Part shown: one piece after another, positions 2,105 through 27,702 of the stretch
Layout: each line of letters starts with the position of its first letter
How positions within the stretch are numbered: the first letter of the stretch is position 1
Origin: Dehalococcoidia bacterium
GTDB lineage: Bacteria; Chloroflexota; Dehalococcoidia; Lucifugimonadales; Lucifugimonadaceae
Length of the DNA stretch: 37,850 bases
Assembly: GCA_026421185.1 (NCBI GenBank)
Contig: JAPKCH010000015.1
Span: 1 to 37,850 of the forward strand
Reading direction: 5' to 3'
Notes under the pieces: generated by a model
What the model saw: only the letters and a program-made list of their open reading frames with translations
Databases searched by the model: none
Told to the model about the DNA's origin: nothing
Translations under genes and position numbers: made by a program

Positions 2105-3714
2105 TCGTCTGAGGCTTCTCGGCGTTTTTCTGCACTGCGTTCAGCTTCGAGCCGTTCAAGACCGTATGAGCTGTGGTCAACGTACGTCATAGCATCTGCA
2201 AGAGCTTTGTGCCCTGCTTTATCTCGAATTAGTTTGTGCATTTTCTGACATACGCGTCGGTAGTCCGGGTGACCTTGCTGAGAGGTTCGTAGCTCCAACA
2301 TATGGAACGCTTCACGTACGTTGAACTGCATTGAGTAACGTAGCTTGAATCCGAACGGAACAACGTACTGAGCGACATCAGAGCCGTGCTCGTTAAGCAC
2401 TGTTTCGTGGAACTCGCTCATGCGTCCCATTGCTTCGCCCCAACGCTGAGTCCAGCCGACCTCTTCGATGGCTGCTGGTGTGGAATATCCGTGCTTGACG
2501 CCGAGGCGTTGCCAGTCAACGGTCATCATCCGGTGTCGTTGCAAATCGCGGAAGCTGCCGAAATCTGAGAGCACATCGAAGCGGTAGAACGAGCGTTCCA
2601 TTCCACGACCTGGCTTGTGCCGACGGTTTTGTCGATCGCCGGTGTAGGCTCGAATCACGTCTGCTTTTTCGGACTCACTCATTTCGTTGACGATTGCCTG
2701 GAGCTGAGCGTCGGAGAGATCGGTGTGGGCGTATAGAGCTGCGGCAGCGATCTTGTTTTCAGCATCGTGATCCCATTCGACGAGGCTTACTTCTTCGATA
2801 CCGTGAGGTTCAACGTCGATGCACGAAGCGATGCGTTCCATTGCTTCGTGGTTGTCCTCAAAGTATCCCGACCAAACACCGCCACGGCCTGGAAGATCGA
2901 CTCGTTTTAGGAACGATGGAATAACTTTGCGAAGTTCTTCGAGCATCATTCGGGCGTAGTCACGTGCTTCTTCGAGCGGGTGACTGTTCATGCGAATCAG
3001 CATGGATTCGAATGCCTGACCAGAGCCAAAGATTCCTACGTTGGAAGTTGTGGCTGCAGGAAGGAGTCCACGCGCTGAATCGCACGCTTTGGCCCGAATC
3101 GATGACGTATAGATAAATTTAGAGTCGCCATCTTGTTTCGGGAACTGGTTTTCAAAAAATGTTACACAGGTGTGAACTAGCTCGGAATACTCGTCGAACA
3201 GCCAATCCATGGTCTTGGTGTATTCGGCGGCGAGTGGGCCAGTTTCAATTTCAGGCGGTGCGGTGTAGCGAAAACTACCGCCAAGTTTCTGATCGTAGAA
3301 GATGTATCGGGTTGACTGTTCGAGATATGCGGTGAGGCGTCCCCATTCAAGTATTTTGGTGAGGATGTTTGATGATTGTTCACATGCGATGTGAGCGCCA
3401 CCGAGCTGCGCTACGGAGTCGTCGCCGTATTGCGAGAAGACTCGGTCGTAGAGGCCTTCAGCACGATTCAGTGAGACTAGCTGTTGGCTGTCTGAATCTT
3501 CAGAGAGTTCTTCGATCGGTATTTCTGGTTGATTGTAAAACTCATCGAGGAATAATCGTCGAAGAGATTTTGGGGAGCGGCTGTAGCGTGCGAATAGTGC
3601 ACCTTTGACGACCTCGGGGAGGTTGGTGAGGGCGAATACGGGGCCATCGATATTCGTAAAGAAACGGCTAAGTACCGCTCGTTCTTCCGTGCTGAATGTT
3701 TCCCGTACGTACAT
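2101..3714 (-). CDS. Long ThyX-like protein (tandem FAD-dependent thymidylate synthase fold)
   Basis: 537 residues, about twice a normal ThyX (220-250). Each half looks like a ThyX module. The N-terminal half has W-G-R-L-T-A-Y-L-E-Q-S-T-R-Y (residues 124-137), matching the second part of the ThyX signature (N-E-x-S-x-R-Y), and a later nucleotide-site-like stretch (SIRAKACDSARGLLP). The C-terminal half has RHRMMT (393-398), matching the RHRxxS part, and N-V-R-E-A-F-H-M-L-E-L-R. The signature is thus split between halves, and neither half has the complete RHR(x7)S motif. Such proteins are usually annotated as FAD-dependent thymidylate synthase; activity is uncertain. ATG start; a TAGGCT hexamer ends 8 nt upstream of it. 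Confidence 0.75.
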   Translation of the reverse strand: MYVRETFSTEERAVLSRFFTNIDGPVFALTNLPEVVKGALFARYSRSPKSLRRLFLDEFYNQPEIPIEELSEDSDSQQLVSLNRAEGLYDRVFSQYGDDSVAQLGGAHIACEQSSNILTKILEWGRLTAYLEQSTRYIFYDQKLGGSFRYTAPPEIETGPLAAEYTKTMDWLFDEYSELVHTCVTFFENQFPKQDGDSKFIYTSSIRAKACDSARGLLPAATTSNVGIFGSGQAFESMLIRMNSHPLEEARDYARMMLEELRKVIPSFLKRVDLPGRGGVWSGYFEDNHEAMERIASCIDVEPHGIEEVSLVEWDHDAENKIAAAALYAHTDLSDAQLQAIVNEMSESEKADVIRAYTGDRQNRRHKPGRGMERSFYRFDVLSDFGSFRDLQRHRMMTVDWQRLGVKHGYSTPAAIEEVGWTQRWGEAMGRMSEFHETVLNEHGSDVAQYVVPFGFKLRYSMQFNVREAFHMLELRTSQQGHPDYRRVCQKMHKLIRDKAGHKALADAMTYVDHSSYGLERLEAERSAEKRREASDD

Positions 3715-15217: not shown

Positions 15218-17878
15218 TTACTTCTTTTCAGGAGCTTCGGCAGGTTCGATCTGAGCGGCGTATCGCCAGTCGGCAGTCGGAATTCCGGGAGTGAAGCTGA
15301 TTGATTCGGCTCCACCAGCAGCTGCGACGTCGTCGAGTACTAATCGTAGATTTGACTTACCAGATTCATCTGCTTCAAGCACGAGACTCAGCAGCTCACG
15401 GTTCAGACTCACGCCGCTTTCGCTCTTAGCTTTTCGGATCGCCGAGATGGCGTCGCAAGCGGCTGGGAACGATCCGGGCTCTTCAGGTGCCGGAATCGAA
15501 TCGAATTCTTCGATAGTAGGCCAAGGGGCTTTGTGAATTGAAGGGTGCCCAGTTTCTTCGGCGAATACCCAGCTCCACACTTCGTCGGCAATGGTAGGAA
15601 CGACCGGAGCGAACAAACGAAGCACGACGTTTAAGCCGAGTCGCAATGTTGCGACAGCCGAAGCCCTACCCGTAGGGTCGTCCTCTGAACGAGATCGTCG
15701 TTTGAGTAACTCGATGTAGTTATCGGTGAACGCACCCCAGAAGAACTTTTCCGTTTCACTGAGTGCGACCGAGAATTCGAACTTCTCGAACGCCTGACCT
15801 GTCGTGCTGACAACTTCCTTCAACTCAGCAATGAATGCTCGGTCGAGTTCGTTGGTGATAGGACCTTCGTCGGCGGTTTGAGAGAGCACGAATTTACCGG
15901 CGTTGTATAGCTTCGTGACCAGCTTGCCACCGATCTTGAAGATTGACTCGTCGTGAGCGGCATCGGCGCCGAGCTTGAAAGAGGCCGACCAGTATCGAAC
16001 GGCGTCGGCACCGAATCTTTCGAGAGTATCGACTGGCGTTACGACGTTGCCTTTAGATTTCGACATCTTCTTACGGTCAGGATCAAGTACCCAGCCGGAG
16101 AGGTTGATGTTGTGCCACGGAACAGATTCTTGGTGCAACATCGCCTTTGCGATTGTGTAGAACGCCCAAGTTCGGATGATGTCGTGTCCCTGTGGGCGCA
16201 TGTCCATTGGGAAAAGTGTGTTCATCTGGTCGTCTTCGTCGCCCCAGCGTGCAACGGTTTGCGGGCTGAGTGATGAAGTGAACCATGTGTCGAAAATATC
16301 GGGTTCACCAGCGAATCCGCCAGCTACGCCACGTTGGCTTTCGTCGTAGCCGGGAGCTGCGATTGATTCGGGGTCTACTGGCAGCATGTCGGGAGTTGCG
16401 ATTATTGCCTGATTGTACTGAGGTTCGCCTTGGTCATCGAGCGGATACCAAACTGGAATGGGTACTCCGAAGTAGCGTTGGCGCGAAATACACCAGTCGA
16501 CGTTTAGATTCTCGGTCCAGTTTTCAAAACGCTTTCGCATGAATTCTGGGTGCCACGTGATTTTGCGTCCCATCTCGATCATCTTGTCGGTCTTATCGAG
16601 CATTCGTACGAACCACTGGCGAGTGGTTAGATATTCAAGTGGACTGTCACCCTTTTCGTAGTAGCGAACTGGGTGCTGAATTTGCTTAGGTTCTTCCTGA
16701 AGAGGAGCTCCGTTGCCGGTCGCCGAGTTTTCAGGATCACGCATTAGTTCAACAACGATTGTTTTTGCGGATGGCGTGCGCTTGCCAACTATCTGCTGAT
16801 AGTTCTCGTTGGCTTTCTCAGGATTTGTGCTTGTCCAGCCGTCGCCGCTTGGACCGCTGAATTCATGGTCGAGTATTCGACCGTTGCGGCCGAGTATTTG
16901 TCGAAGCTCAAGACCTTCTTCTCGCCACCATGCAACGTCGGTTTGATCACCGAACGTACATACCATCAGAATTCCGGTTCCCTTTTCAGGATCGGCTTCA
17001 GTACTTGGGAAGATTGGGACTTTGGCGAAGAAGCCAGGAGTGATCGCATGCTTACCGAAGAGTCCCTTGAATCGAGGGTCGTCGGGGTGTGCTGTTATAC
17101 CGACACAGGCAGCGAGTAGCTCTGGTCGAGTAGTCGAGATCACAAAGCTCTTGGTTGGGGCGTCTTCTTCGAGCACTCCGAATTCAATATCGTGGTACGC
17201 ACCACTCTTTTCTCGATCTTCTACTTCAGCTTGAGCAACAGCTGTTTGGAAATCGACGTCCCACATGGTTGGGGATTCGAGCTGGTAGACGTGTTTCTTC
17301 TCGTACAGATCTAGGAAGCTGCGTTGTGCGATGCGGCGACTTTTGTCGTCGATGGTTGCGTATTCATCTGCCCAGTCGATCGAGTAGCCCATACGGTCGA
17401 ACGTTTCTTTGAAGACTATTTCGTCCATCTCGGTTACGACGCGACATAGCTCAATGAAATTCTGACGGTTGATTACTAGTTGTTGTTTTTTCTTGAGTCC
17501 TTTTTCAGCTCGTGAAGCTTCAACGTCGAGGTTTTCGATGTAAGGAACACCGCGTTCGGCTCGAACCATGAAGTAGTTCTGTACACGGCGTTCAGTTGGG
17601 AGTCCGTTGTCGTCCCAGCCCATTGGGTAGGCAACGTTCCAGCCTGCCATGCGTTTGTAGCGCGCTATAAGGTCTTGGTGTGTGTAGGAGAAGATGTGGC
17701 CGATGTGAAGCGATCCACTAACAGTTGGTGGTGGTGAGTCGATTACGAACGACTTATCACGTGGTGCGGTGGGGTCGCGTTTTTCTACACCCAGTTCGCT
17801 CCAGCGTTTGCGCCAATGCAGTTCCCGTTCATTAATATCAAAGCGCTTTGGAAGATCGCCAAACTCTATCGACTTCAA
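15218..17878 (-). CDS. valS: Valyl-tRNA synthetase
   Basis: Class I aminoacyl-tRNA synthetase charging tRNA-Val. HIGH is at 58-61 and KMSKS at 604-608. The segment GWDDNGLPTERRVQ (near 88-100) replaces the more usual bacterial GTDHAGIATQ and marks the alternative ValS subtype seen in some actinobacterial, archaeal-type and other lineages. The editing (CP1) domain occupies about 200-400, and the anticodon-binding domain follows KMSKS. 886 residues. The start is TTG at 17878, with AGGA 8 nt upstream. Regulated by a T-box leader just upstream, i.e. by uncharged tRNA-Val. Confidence 0.96.
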   Translation of the reverse strand: MKSIEFGDLPKRFDINERELHWRKRWSELGVEKRDPTAPRDKSFVIDSPPPTVSGSLHIGHIFSYTHQDLIARYKRMAGWNVAYPMGWDDNGLPTERRVQNYFMVRAERGVPYIENLDVEASRAEKGLKKKQQLVINRQNFIELCRVVTEMDEIVFKETFDRMGYSIDWADEYATIDDKSRRIAQRSFLDLYEKKHVYQLESPTMWDVDFQTAVAQAEVEDREKSGAYHDIEFGVLEEDAPTKSFVISTTRPELLAACVGITAHPDDPRFKGLFGKHAITPGFFAKVPIFPSTEADPEKGTGILMVCTFGDQTDVAWWREEGLELRQILGRNGRILDHEFSGPSGDGWTSTNPEKANENYQQIVGKRTPSAKTIVVELMRDPENSATGNGAPLQEEPKQIQHPVRYYEKGDSPLEYLTTRQWFVRMLDKTDKMIEMGRKITWHPEFMRKRFENWTENLNVDWCISRQRYFGVPIPVWYPLDDQGEPQYNQAIIATPDMLPVDPESIAAPGYDESQRGVAGGFAGEPDIFDTWFTSSLSPQTVARWGDEDDQMNTLFPMDMRPQGHDIIRTWAFYTIAKAMLHQESVPWHNINLSGWVLDPDRKKMSKSKGNVVTPVDTLERFGADAVRYWSASFKLGADAAHDESIFKIGGKLVTKLYNAGKFVLSQTADEGPITNELDRAFIAELKEVVSTTGQAFEKFEFSVALSETEKFFWGAFTDNYIELLKRRSRSEDDPTGRASAVATLRLGLNVVLRLFAPVVPTIADEVWSWVFAEETGHPSIHKAPWPTIEEFDSIPAPEEPGSFPAACDAISAIRKAKSESGVSLNRELLSLVLEADESGKSNLRLVLDDVAAAGGAESISFTPGIPTADWRYAAQIEPAEAPEKK

Positions 17879-17933: not shown

Positions 17934-17987
17934 AAAAAACCCATCCACTTCAGAAGTTCTAAACAAAACTTCATCAAAGGACGGGTT
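17934..17987 (-). terminator. Attenuator terminator of the valS T-box
   Basis: On the minus strand AACCC-GTCC (from 17987) pairs with GGAT-GGGTT, an inner GAAGTT pairs with AACTTC, and six U residues follow (17940-17935). It is mutually exclusive with the antiterminator that contains the T-box sequence. Confidence 0.85.
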
Positions 17988-18214
17988 GACCGCGGTACCA
18001 CCTTCTTTGCTCACTGCCTTGTTCTTGGCATGTGAACCACTTGATTAGCTGTAACGGAGCTACCGGGTGAACTTATCGGTTAGTGTTCCAAATGAAACAC
18101 GAACTTTCAGTACGCCAGCTCGGAGACGACTTCACGTATTCGAGGGTTCCGGTTCACACCAACCACCGGATCTCTTAGACCCTGCAAACTCGCTACTACT
18201 TCTCGTCGAAGCTG
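17934..18214 (-). promoter_or_regulatory. T-box riboswitch controlling valS
   Basis: The minus strand carries the T-box core GGTGGTACCGCGG (about 18002-17990). Upstream is a Stem I starting near 18214: CAGCT pairs with AGCTG, GACGA with TCGTC, and an AGTA motif sits on the 5' side. Opposite it, the specifier loop region reads AATAC-GTG-A. GTG at 18135-18133 is the likely valine specifier, followed by a purine. A TGCC...GGCA hairpin (near 18030-18015) fits Stem III. The antiterminator and terminator follow. Known mechanism: uncharged tRNA-Val pairs with the specifier and the T-box bulge and allows read-through into valS. The UAC (Tyr) triplet just before GTG is an alternative reading of the loop, but valS downstream favours GTG. 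Confidence 0.92.
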
Positions 18215-18230
18215 ATTCGATATCACTTTT

Positions 18231-23767: not shown

Positions 23768-24730
23768 CTAATTACCGAGGGTGAACAATTCTCCCACTGA
23801 GCGGCCTTCGTGGATTCGCCTAATCGCTTCTCCAAGAAGCGGTGCGACTGAGATTACCTTGATTTTTGAGTTTACTTTGTTCTCGGACAAAGGCACTGTG
23901 TCGGTTATTACCAATTCTTTGATATGTGGGATGTCTGTGATTCGTTTTGAAGCGTCTCCAGGGAGAACGCCGTGAGTGGCAACGACATAAATTTCGCTGG
24001 CTCCTCGCGCTGTTATTGCTTCAACCGCCGATATCACCGTTCGACCAGTGCTTATTTCATCATCAAACAGGATGACGGGATGATCCCCGACATCACCTAT
24101 CACATTCATACTCTCGACTCGGTCTTCATTTCCGAGGCGGCGTTTTTCAACGATGGCTAGCGGAGCACTAATTGCATCAGCGAAGTAACGGGCTTTCTTC
24201 GATATGCCGATATCAACTGCGACAACTACTGGGTTATCAAGATTGTGCTCGATGAAATAGTCGACCAGTTTCGGCATTGCGGTGAGTTCGTCGACAGGAA
24301 CGTGGAAGAATCCCTGAACTTGCCCGGCGTGAAGATCGACCATGATGGCGCGATCGGCTCCGGCCGTTTCCAGTAGATCGGCAATAAGTCGACCAGTAAT
24401 GGGTACTCGCGGCTGGTCTTTTTTATCGGTGCGAGCGTAGCTATAGTATGGAATTACGGCAGTGATACGACCGGCTGATGCACGCTTTGCGGCATCGATC
24501 ATGATCAACATTTCCATGATGTTGTCGTTCACTGGCTCGACGTCTGACTGCACGATAAATACGTCTTTTTGTCGAACGTTTTCCAGAATCTTCACGAAAG
24601 TGTTGTCGTTGGTGAACTTGAATACTTCGACTTGACCGACATCTTGTTGCAGATAGTCGCAAATCTTTTTCACCAAATCCGGGTGTGAGTTCCCAGCGAA
24701 AATTATTGGATTTCCGTTAACCCCGTACAT
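23768..24730 (-). CDS. prs: Ribose-phosphate pyrophosphokinase (PRPP synthetase)
   Basis: Makes PRPP from ribose 5-phosphate and ATP for nucleotide, His and Trp synthesis. Seen: the catalytic/ATP segment YYSYARTDKKDQPRVPITGR (95-114), DLHAGQ (132-137), and the PRPP loop VILFDDEISTGRTV (219-232). The loop is somewhat divergent from the common VDDMIDTGGT. 320 residues fits the class I family. The ATG overlaps the stop of the upstream crotonase gene as TAATG, so translation is coupled. Function is secure from the three motifs. Confidence 0.95.
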   Translation of the reverse strand: MYGVNGNPIIFAGNSHPDLVKKICDYLQQDVGQVEVFKFTNDNTFVKILENVRQKDVFIVQSDVEPVNDNIMEMLIMIDAAKRASAGRITAVIPYYSYARTDKKDQPRVPITGRLIADLLETAGADRAIMVDLHAGQVQGFFHVPVDELTAMPKLVDYFIEHNLDNPVVVAVDIGISKKARYFADAISAPLAIVEKRRLGNEDRVESMNVIGDVGDHPVILFDDEISTGRTVISAVEAITARGASEIYVVATHGVLPGDASKRITDIPHIKELVITDTVPLSENKVNSKIKVISVAPLLGEAIRRIHEGRSVGELFTLGN

Positions 24731-25545
24731 TAGATCCCCTTGAACTCTGGACGTCGTTTTTGGCGCAGAGCGCCCATACCCTCAACATGATCTTCAGAGG
24801 ATAACGTTATTGCCTCGGCTGCGGCGGACATTTCAAGGGAAGTTTCGAGGTCCATCGACATTCCTCGCCGCATCATTGTCTTAGCTAGCCGTATTGCTAT
24901 TGGTGGTCCGGCAGCTATTTGGTGCGCCATTTTCTCGGCGGCACCTATCAGATCATCTTCTTCGACAACGCTATTTAGGAAGCCGAGAGACTTGGCTTCG
25001 TCTACTTCCATGAAGTTGCCGGTGTACATCAGTTCCGCGGCTTTTGCCGAACCTAATAGTCGAGGATATAGCCATATTCCACCATAGCCGGGGAATAGAC
25101 CTACGTGAATGTAGGCGGCCATAAAACGTGCTGATCCAGTGCCTATACGAATGTCGCAGGCACAGGCGAGATCGAAGCCAGCGCCTACCGCTGATCCGTT
25201 TATCGCGGCGATAACAGGCTTTTCCATCTCGTATATTCCGAGGATTACTTTACGGGCGAGTTTGAATCCTCGGCGCAGTGCTTCAGCACCACCGAGGCTT
25301 GGTTTATGAGGGCCCTCGCCGCCGCCGCCGGCCATTTCGTCGGTATCAGCACCAGAGCAGAATGCTCGGCCTGCGCCAGTAATGATTACGGAGCGAATGG
25401 AGTCGTCAGCTGCGACTTGTTCGAGATGCTGAGACAACGATTCAAGTAGATCGTTACTGAGCGAGTTGAGTCGATCAGGTCTGTTTAACGTGAGAGTGGC
25501 GAATCCAGATTCGCTATTCACGTCGAGTATTACGCTCGAGTTCAT
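24730..25545 (-). CDS. Crotonase-superfamily (enoyl-CoA hydratase/isomerase-like) protein
   Basis: 271 residues with the crotonase fold: LNRPDRLNSLS, oxyanion-hole segments CSGAD and NGSAVGAG, and a GYGG loop. The two glutamates that catalyse hydration in classical enoyl-CoA hydratase are not conserved: the first position is D125 (GAGFDLA instead of G-G-C-E-L) and the second is Y145 (AAYIHVG instead of Q-P-E-I-x-L-G). A Gly-rich loop GGGGEGPHKP follows the first oxyanion segment. It is therefore more likely an isomerase, hydrolase or other CoA-ester enzyme than a hydratase. It overlaps prs by one base. The exact reaction is unknown. Confidence 0.85.
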   Translation of the reverse strand: MNSSVILDVNSESGFATLTLNRPDRLNSLSNDLLESLSQHLEQVAADDSIRSVIITGAGRAFCSGADTDEMAGGGGEGPHKPSLGGAEALRRGFKLARKVILGIYEMEKPVIAAINGSAVGAGFDLACACDIRIGTGSARFMAAYIHVGLFPGYGGIWLYPRLLGSAKAAELMYTGNFMEVDEAKSLGFLNSVVEEDDLIGAAEKMAHQIAAGPPIAIRLAKTMMRRGMSMDLETSLEMSAAAEAITLSSEDHVEGMGALRQKRRPEFKGI

Positions 25546-25831: not shown

Positions 25832-25942
25832 CTAGATATCTTTGGAGAATCCGCATTGGGGACACTTTAGTAATGTTTCGTGGGTGGCGATATCAGAGTT
25901 GATATCGCCAGTGCATCGAGGGCAAGATTTCAAGTACAGCAT
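25832..25942 (-). CDS. 36-residue zinc-ribbon protein
   Basis: A short minus-strand frame from ATG 25942 to TAG 25834-25832 encodes two cysteine knuckles: S-C-P-R-C-T-G-D near residue 7 and K-C-P-Q-C-G-F near residue 27, separated by 16 residues. This CPxC-x16-CPxCG layout is that of small zinc-ribbon proteins, which commonly read CPRCxGD...CxQCGY. A purine-rich AAGAAGATCGAG precedes the ATG. It lies 168 bp downstream of the selenoprotein gene on the same strand, with a hairpin between them. Role unknown: nucleic-acid or protein contact is typical for such ribbons. Too short for routine gene calling. Confidence 0.6.
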   Translation of the reverse strand: MLYLKSCPRCTGDINSDIATHETLLKCPQCGFSKDI

Positions 25943-26110: not shown

Positions 26111-26458
26111 CTAAATAAGTTCGTCGTATGCGCCTTGTTTGTACCCGAAAACTATCTTTAAACCGTCGGTAAGAATGGGACGTCGAATTAAGCGAGGTTC
26201 TCTAATCATAAGTTCGATAAGTTCATCATCGCTGGCTTTACCGCGGAGTTCTCGATAATCCTTAGAACTTGGGCTTTTCCAGGCGAACATTTCGTCGATA
26301 GAGGTGAGCTTGCTGAGGTTGCGAATTTCATCGGCGGAGAGTTGTTCTTTGAAGAAATCTCTGAATTCGTATTCATGACTGGTTTGGTTGAGAGCCCGAC
26401 GGGCCTTCGTACAGGTACTTCAACGTGACCAGCAGTAGAACTTCAGTTCGTTAGACAC
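26111..26458 (-). CDS. Probable selenoprotein of the ArsC/Spx family (in-frame TGA = Sec13)
   Basis: Reading through one TGA (26422-26420) gives a complete 115-residue ArsC/Spx-family protein. The start is FYCWSR-U-STCTKARRAL; later come RDFFKEQLS, the SPSSKDYREL segment and the hallmark EPRLIRRPILTDG. In relatives the TGA position is the first cysteine of CxxC (CSTC), so the motif here is U-S-T-C. The GTG start at 26458 has GGAG 7 nt upstream. TGA ends acpS and the phosphoglycerate mutase gene in this window, so it is not generally reassigned. The 102 codons after TGA are intact and family-conserved, which argues against a pseudogene. Family members are thioredoxin-fold reductases or RNA-polymerase-binding regulators; a redox enzyme is the better fit for a Sec form. 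No selA, selB, selD or tRNA-Sec is in the window. Confidence 0.8.
26390..26408 (-). promoter_or_regulatory. Candidate bacterial SECIS element
   Basis: Inside the coding sequence, GAAGGCCC (26408-26401) pairs with GGGCTCTC (26397-26390) in 7 of 8 positions (one A/C mismatch, one G/U) around the loop GUC. There are 19 nt between the UGA and the loop, close to the E. coli fdhF spacing, and the loop starts with G-U as SelB-binding loops do. Confidence 0.6.
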
Positions 26459-26553
26459 TCGTGTTCTCCATTTTTTTCGACACGCGGTTTGTGGGACCAA
26501 AAGTTTTATCTTGTTGCCACCTACTAAACCTTAACACTAAAGGTATTGCCGAG

Positions 26554-26739: not shown

Positions 26740-27702
26740 ATGGATGTATTTCTCGCCAGCCCACGAGGCTTTTGTGCCGGTGTTGATTTGGCCGTCGATA
26801 TTGTTGATCTTGCGATTCAGCAGTACGGAACGCCTGTTTACGTGAAGCATCAGATTGTTCACAACCCCAAAGTTGTGGCTGATGTCGAGGCGAAAGGTGC
26901 AATCACTGTTGAAGACGTTAAGGAAGTTCCCGAGGGCGCAGTTGTGGTTTTCTCGGCACATGGATCACCACCGTCGGACTATGAGAAGGCGAAGCAGCGC
27001 GGTCTTACCGTATTAGATGCAACATGTCCTCTCGTAACTCGTGTTCACAACGAGGCGAAGAAGTACACGGCTGAAGGCAAAAAGATTGTTCTTGTGGGGC
27101 ACGTCGGTCATCAGGAAGTGATTGGCACGACGGGTCAGGCCGATATGGCGCTGGTCGATGAGCGACAGGATTGGGAGCTCCCACAGTGGGGTAAAGATGC
27201 AGAGGTTGCGGTTTTGACTCAGACCACTCTTTCAGTGGACGACACTGCCTTAGCAGTAGCGAAAATAAAGAAACATCACCCTAACGCCATTGTTCGGGAC
27301 GACATTTGTTACGCCACTACCAATCGACAGGCGGCGGCCACGGAACTTGCTGATATGACCGAGCTAGTTCTGGTGATAGGTGCGCAGAACAGTTCAAACT
27401 GCAATCGACTCAAAGATGTGGCTATAAAAAAAGGCGTGCCGGCGCATTTGATTAACGGTCCTGAGGAGCTGGACATGAAGTGGTTGGAATCTGTCGAGAA
27501 GATCGGCATTACGTCTGGCGCTTCAACTCCTGAAAAACAGGTCAAAGCAGTTATAGATGCTATCTCACCGGAAAACGTGTTCCGAGTTGGTCCGGGTGAG
27601 GAAAGTACTACATTCGCAATTCCACGAAGCCTACGATCGATGGTTGGCGACGGGACCCGTAGCAGCATTAAAGAAGAAAACATTATCGATGAAAATAACT
27701 AG
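26740..27702 (+). CDS. ispH: 4-hydroxy-3-methylbut-2-enyl diphosphate reductase IspH
   Basis: Last enzyme of the MEP isoprenoid pathway, making IPP and DMAPP. The three [4Fe-4S] cysteines are C12 (GFCAGV), C96 (DATCPL) and C190 (DDICYAT). Substrate-binding histidines are in VHNPKVV, FSAHGSPP and GHVGHQE; the TTNRQ motif is also present. 320 residues. ATG start at 26740 without an obvious ribosome site. The 3' end overlaps the start of the enolase-superfamily gene by 14 bp. Confidence 0.96.
   Translation: MDVFLASPRGFCAGVDLAVDIVDLAIQQYGTPVYVKHQIVHNPKVVADVEAKGAITVEDVKEVPEGAVVVFSAHGSPPSDYEKAKQRGLTVLDATCPLVTRVHNEAKKYTAEGKKIVLVGHVGHQEVIGTTGQADMALVDERQDWELPQWGKDAEVAVLTQTTLSVDDTALAVAKIKKHHPNAIVRDDICYATTNRQAAATELADMTELVLVIGAQNSSNCNRLKDVAIKKGVPAHLINGPEELDMKWLESVEKIGITSGASTPEKQVKAVIDAISPENVFRVGPGEESTTFAIPRSLRSMVGDGTRSSIKEENIIDENN

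Follow-up and report, generated by a model that had tools for sequence, protein, structure and literature searches.

A predicted selenocysteine-containing protein of the ArsC/Spx fold in SAR202 Chloroflexota

Introduction

Sec-containing proteins of the ArsC/Spx type with a UxxC motif have been known from ocean metagenomes since 2008 (PMC2398784), and the novelty of the locus analysed here is accordingly modest. In the part of that ocean survey that describes them, they appear as 'Arsenate reductase 2' (cd03032, UxxC), represented by 42 sequences with Sec and 238 with Cys. Judged by this description, the group is like our protein in its fold family, UxxC motif, marine origin and possession of Cys homologues; the description gives the 42 sequences without a named host, whereas the host here belongs to SAR202. 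The original prediction of this gene was right in stating that Sec-containing ArsC-like sequences have been reported from marine metagenomes. A selenoprotein list of 2026 includes two further families, NF041106 (ArsC_rel_Se_1) with UxxC and TIGR00014 with UxxS (PMC13188914). The former shares the ArsC fold and the UxxC motif with our protein, but the latter's match to the model, 34.1 bits against a cut-off of 85, places it in a different subfamily.

Other relatives use Cys. Spx of Bacillus subtilis has the same fold, a CxxC site and the RRP motif, and differs from the protein described here, which has Sec in place of Cys10 and a deletion at the position of G52, and lacks the C-terminal tail. 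Both YffB and E. coli ArsC (R773) share the fold and the anion-binding Arg. Their motif has one redox Cys, whereas here U pairs with C.

What we did not find in the literature searched is the assignment of such a protein to SAR202 and the Chloroflexota, the displacement of its SECIS element, and the repeated replacement of Sec by Cys. The search, which had most subscription papers outside its range, returned no paper on selenoproteins in SAR202 and none that combined selenoprotein, ArsC, Spx and selenocysteine. Selenoprotein synthesis in SAR202, a widespread group of ocean bacteria, is indicated by this locus, which also gives a selenoprotein type from ocean surveys a host lineage in which a cultured strain is available for testing.

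An intact frame with a single in-frame TGA

The window, a stretch of 37,850 nucleotides (contig C73), comes from a draft genome of 2.13 Mb in 117 contigs that is 96.6% complete and belongs to the same genus as the SAR202 strain Candidatus Lucifugimonas marina JH1073. SAR202 strains have been cultured, and the paper on their cultivation makes no mention of selenium (PMC10444878). The gene lies on the minus strand and spans 116 codons (26458-26111), from a GTG start (26458-26456), with a GGAG ribosome-binding site 7 nt 5' of it (26466-26469), to a TAG stop (26113-26111). Its read-through product has 115 residues and begins VSNELKFYCWSRUSTCTKARRAL... The only internal stop is the TGA of codon 13 (26420-26422), the predicted Sec codon. 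It occupies the first position of the motif U-S-T-C, whose last residue, Cys16 (26411-26413), is the presumed resolving Cys and is invariant in the alignment. A standard gene caller would break up or miss genes of this type.

The original prediction had described an otherwise intact 116-codon frame with GTG start, GGAG site and one TGA at the first CxxC position, and had noted that TGA serves as an ordinary stop elsewhere. All of this can be read directly from the sequence or from the alignment of homologues, in which the TGA always falls in the same column. TGA ends two of the 25 main open reading frames of the window, as well as several orthologues. We also counted 66 TGA codons in the window that lie between distant stops, and because there are so many of them a single TGA in a long frame proves little alone.

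Family membership, fold and predicted function

The read-through protein matches PF03960, the ArsC family, with 55.3 bits against a cut-off of 24 (E 8.5e-15). It narrowly misses the Spx/MgsR model TIGR01617, with 74.7 against 75.05. An AlphaFold2 model computed with 19 sequences as input has a pLDDT of 89.8, and among solved structures it is closest in fold to Spx (Z 16.6), YffB (16.4) and ArsC-like proteins. Seven positions are invariant in a diverse set of homologues: Tyr8, Sec/Cys13, Cys16, Arg33, Arg92, Arg93 and Pro94. Arg93 (codon at 26180-26182, minus strand) is part of RRP and aligns with the anion-binding Arg92 of Spx.

A UxxC motif in a thioredoxin fold points to a selenol/thiol oxidoreductase. 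Taken as a whole, the reading of this gene as encoding a selenoprotein of the ArsC/Spx fold, most likely a small selenol/thiol oxidoreductase, is very probable on the sequence evidence. The predicted role as an oxidoreductase, which follows from the UxxC motif, is the less secure part and is favoured rather than firmly assigned. On this reading, SelB and tRNA-Sec would decode UGA codon 13 as Sec, guided by a downstream hairpin within the coding sequence. The selenolate of Sec13 would then attack an oxidised substrate, which may be a disulfide, a peroxide or an oxyanion, near Arg93; Cys16 would resolve the adduct as an Se-S bond, and a reductant of the thioredoxin or glutaredoxin type would reset the protein.

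The protein might instead be a Sec-containing regulator of the Spx kind, in which the Sec-Cys pair would sense oxidation and the protein would bind the alpha subunit of RNA polymerase and change transcription. The best sequence and fold neighbours do include Spx with its CxxC, TIGR01617 is only just missed, and the counterpart of Spx R92 is still an Arg. However, each of the five family members that we aligned with B. subtilis Spx has a two-residue deletion where Spx has G52, a residue absolutely required for the interaction with the alpha-CTD (PMC2801614). The gap at G52 recurs against the Spx sequences of the PDB. The C-terminal tail of Spx is missing from the selenoprotein family, which, moreover, has Lys, Arg or Asn where Spx has R60. 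Because the G52 position is deleted and the tail is absent, we prefer the oxidoreductase to the regulator, which we consider unlikely. The initial naming of the gene as ArsC/Spx therefore stands for the fold and the layout of the CxxC site, but does not extend to the residue with which Spx binds RNA polymerase. That a Sec-based redox switch controls transcription in SAR202 and other Chloroflexota through a contact with RNA polymerase unlike that of Spx G52 seems more doubtful still.

About as improbable is a Sec-containing arsenate reductase that would reduce arsenate with glutaredoxin. Membership of PF03960, the structural similarity to E. coli ArsC (Z 13.4) and the retained arginine of the RP motif are what one would expect of it. 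However, the score against TIGR00014, the model of the glutaredoxin-dependent arsC, is 33.6 against a cut-off of 106, the motif is UxxC rather than the single-Cys active site of ArsC, and a search of ten neighbouring proteins found no arsenic-resistance gene.

Conservation of the TGA codon

Homologues were found in 43 of 60 genomes, the source genome included. Within the genus, 17 of the 18 relatives have the TGA form, and the remaining one is truncated by a contig end and does not cover the region. A sample of the class (393 genomes) gave homologues in 61 genomes, 53 of them with TGA; among the eight scored as non-TGA, one (G166) has a broken frame whose N-terminal piece does contain the TGA. 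In a sample of 400 genomes from the phylum, TGA is present in 43 of the 49 that have a homologue. The cultured Candidatus Lucifugimonas marina, whose genome is complete (CP046147.1), has it too.

The homologues extracted from SAR202 and other Dehalococcoidia have TGA (79 sequences) or Cys (seven sequences) at the first motif position, and nothing else. The fixed position of the codon in 79 homologues is convincing where one TGA alone is not, and its retention in dozens of relatives is why we regard the gene as real. Downstream of the TGA, the pattern of substitutions shows purifying selection on the frame. Within the genus, pN/pS is 0.16 before the TGA and 0.21 after it, and of the variable columns after it 64 lie at first, 49 at second and 97 at third codon positions. 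The start codon of the genus members is GTG, ATG or TTG, always at one fixed place. The checks proposed with the original prediction thus turned out in its favour on both counts that concern relatives: residue 13 is exclusively Cys or TGA, and random stops elsewhere in the frame were not found.

The Cys forms are scattered among the Sec forms in the protein tree, with four changes of label; the tree was built on 117 columns and many of its forks are weak. The simplest reading of these sequences is that an old Sec form was replaced by Cys several times. Four homologues from another genus of the same SAR202 family (g11; L050, L076, L077 and L079) have Cys for Sec, yet their genomes keep selA. 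The family is a small natural example of lineages in which Cys takes the place of Sec while selA is retained.

Selenocysteine machinery of the host

The source genome encodes selA (518 bits), selB (313 bits) and selD (370 bits), all above cut-off. Its tRNA-Sec gene is partial because the end of contig C35 cuts it: bases 3302-3356 of 3356 hold a 55-nt 5' part that includes the anticodon. We found it by a DNA search with the tRNA-Sec of a relative, and it is 100% identical to the first 55 bases of the query. Complete genes for true tRNA-Sec(TCA) are present in relatives. With selA, selB, selD and this part of selC, the suggestion that the host makes selenocysteine is well supported. Across the class sample, selA was detected in 50 of the 53 genomes with the TGA form against 205 of the 340 others (Fisher p 1.3e-7, a value to be read with the caution that related genomes are not independent), and the three TGA-form genomes without a selA hit are all draft assemblies.

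A few further observations concern the same genes. The only hit of the source genome above the threshold of RF01852, on contig C32, was rejected as tRNA-Sec since it is a tRNA-Ser(GCT). The selD gene of the source genome (contig C83) has an in-frame TGA close to the start (LATCAGUAGKLS) and is itself a predicted selenoprotein gene. Besides contig C35, two contigs of another genome (G012; L135 and L138) have tRNA-Sec at their ends. Either assemblies break on a repeat at tRNA-Sec, or the two G012 contigs overlap at their ends and share a single copy of the gene.

A SECIS-type hairpin within the coding sequence

A hairpin of the bSECIS type, GAAGGCCC-GUC-GGGCUCUC (26390-26408, minus strand), begins 11 nt downstream of the UGA, within the coding sequence, and its apical loop GUC (26400-26398) lies 19 nt after the UGA. 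The bSECIS rule asks for a loop of 3-9 nt with G in the first two positions, an upper stem of 4-16 bp, a spacing of 16-37 nt and an MFE of at most -7.5 (PMC13188914). The hairpin conforms to it with -8.7 kcal/mol in a 27-nt context; the bare 19-nt stem has -7.2. A SECIS element downstream of the TGA was among the features that had been proposed for verification, and one that fits the rule is indeed there. In most of the class outside the genus, the hairpin is GCGAGGGA-GUU-UCUCUCGC or a variant of it, located 4 nt further downstream (L043-L131, as compared with L025-L042), with the loop 23 nt after the UGA. Both registers agree with the rule in loop and spacing, and the element has thus shifted by 4 nt inside one gene family.

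We compared the pairing with controls in which synonymous codons were shuffled, which keeps the protein sequence. At least seven of the eight pairs form in 17 of the 18 genus members (94%) against 6% after shuffling, and in 85% of the rest of the class against 9%. Outside the genus, the mean covariation is 0.32, as against -0.20 (SD 0.03) in the controls. The two best covarying pairs, obtained with no structure supplied, are columns 20/34 and 22/32, with changes such as G-C to A-U. Pairing is mostly missing or poor in the Cys homologues. We call this support comparative because a 60-nt piece of the window, folded by itself, does not favour the hairpin (z +0.44). An RNAalifold run on the full set of 79 sequences predicted no structure, probably as a result of mixing the two hairpin registers. 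One sequence from a neighbouring genus (L048) has the 19-nt register of the focal genus, and the hairpin therefore probably moved before the genus arose.

Together with the conserved codon and the host's machinery, the hairpin makes the insertion of Sec at UGA codon 13 almost certain, as far as comparison of sequences can establish it. A single in-frame TGA is also compatible with a changed code, or with leaky read-through, that would place Trp or another standard residue at this codon, but TGA terminates other genes of the window and several orthologues, the aligned residue in relatives is only ever Cys, and both Sec machinery and hairpin are present, which leaves this reading very improbable. 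A sequencing error at the TGA, or decay of the gene into a pseudogene, as a draft assembly might lead one to suspect, can practically be dismissed, since the codon is common to 79 homologues from many assemblies, including one complete genome of a cultured strain, and is followed by a frame under purifying selection with no other stops.

Gene neighbourhood

In the genus, the selenoprotein gene keeps ispH, enoyl-CoA hydratase, prs and secA as neighbours, which give no pointer to its substrate. Comparison of neighbours places a gene for an enoyl-CoA hydratase/isomerase downstream, in conserved synteny (24730-25545, minus strand), followed by the ribose-phosphate diphosphokinase gene prs (23768-24730, minus strand), a neighbour in many members of the family. 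On the other side lies the divergently transcribed ispH/lytB (26740-27702, plus strand). A scan of viral contigs found no relative of the selenoprotein.

Two other features of the window deserve mention. A 36-aa open reading frame, MLYLKSCPRCTGDINSDIATHETLLKCPQCGFSKDI (25832-25942, minus strand), has two CxxC pairs, is likely a zinc ribbon and, in several members of the genus, is conserved downstream of the selenoprotein gene. A T-box leader (17974-18218, minus strand; 115.6 bits) precedes a valine--tRNA ligase gene (15218-17878) of the alt_ValS type (NF000540).
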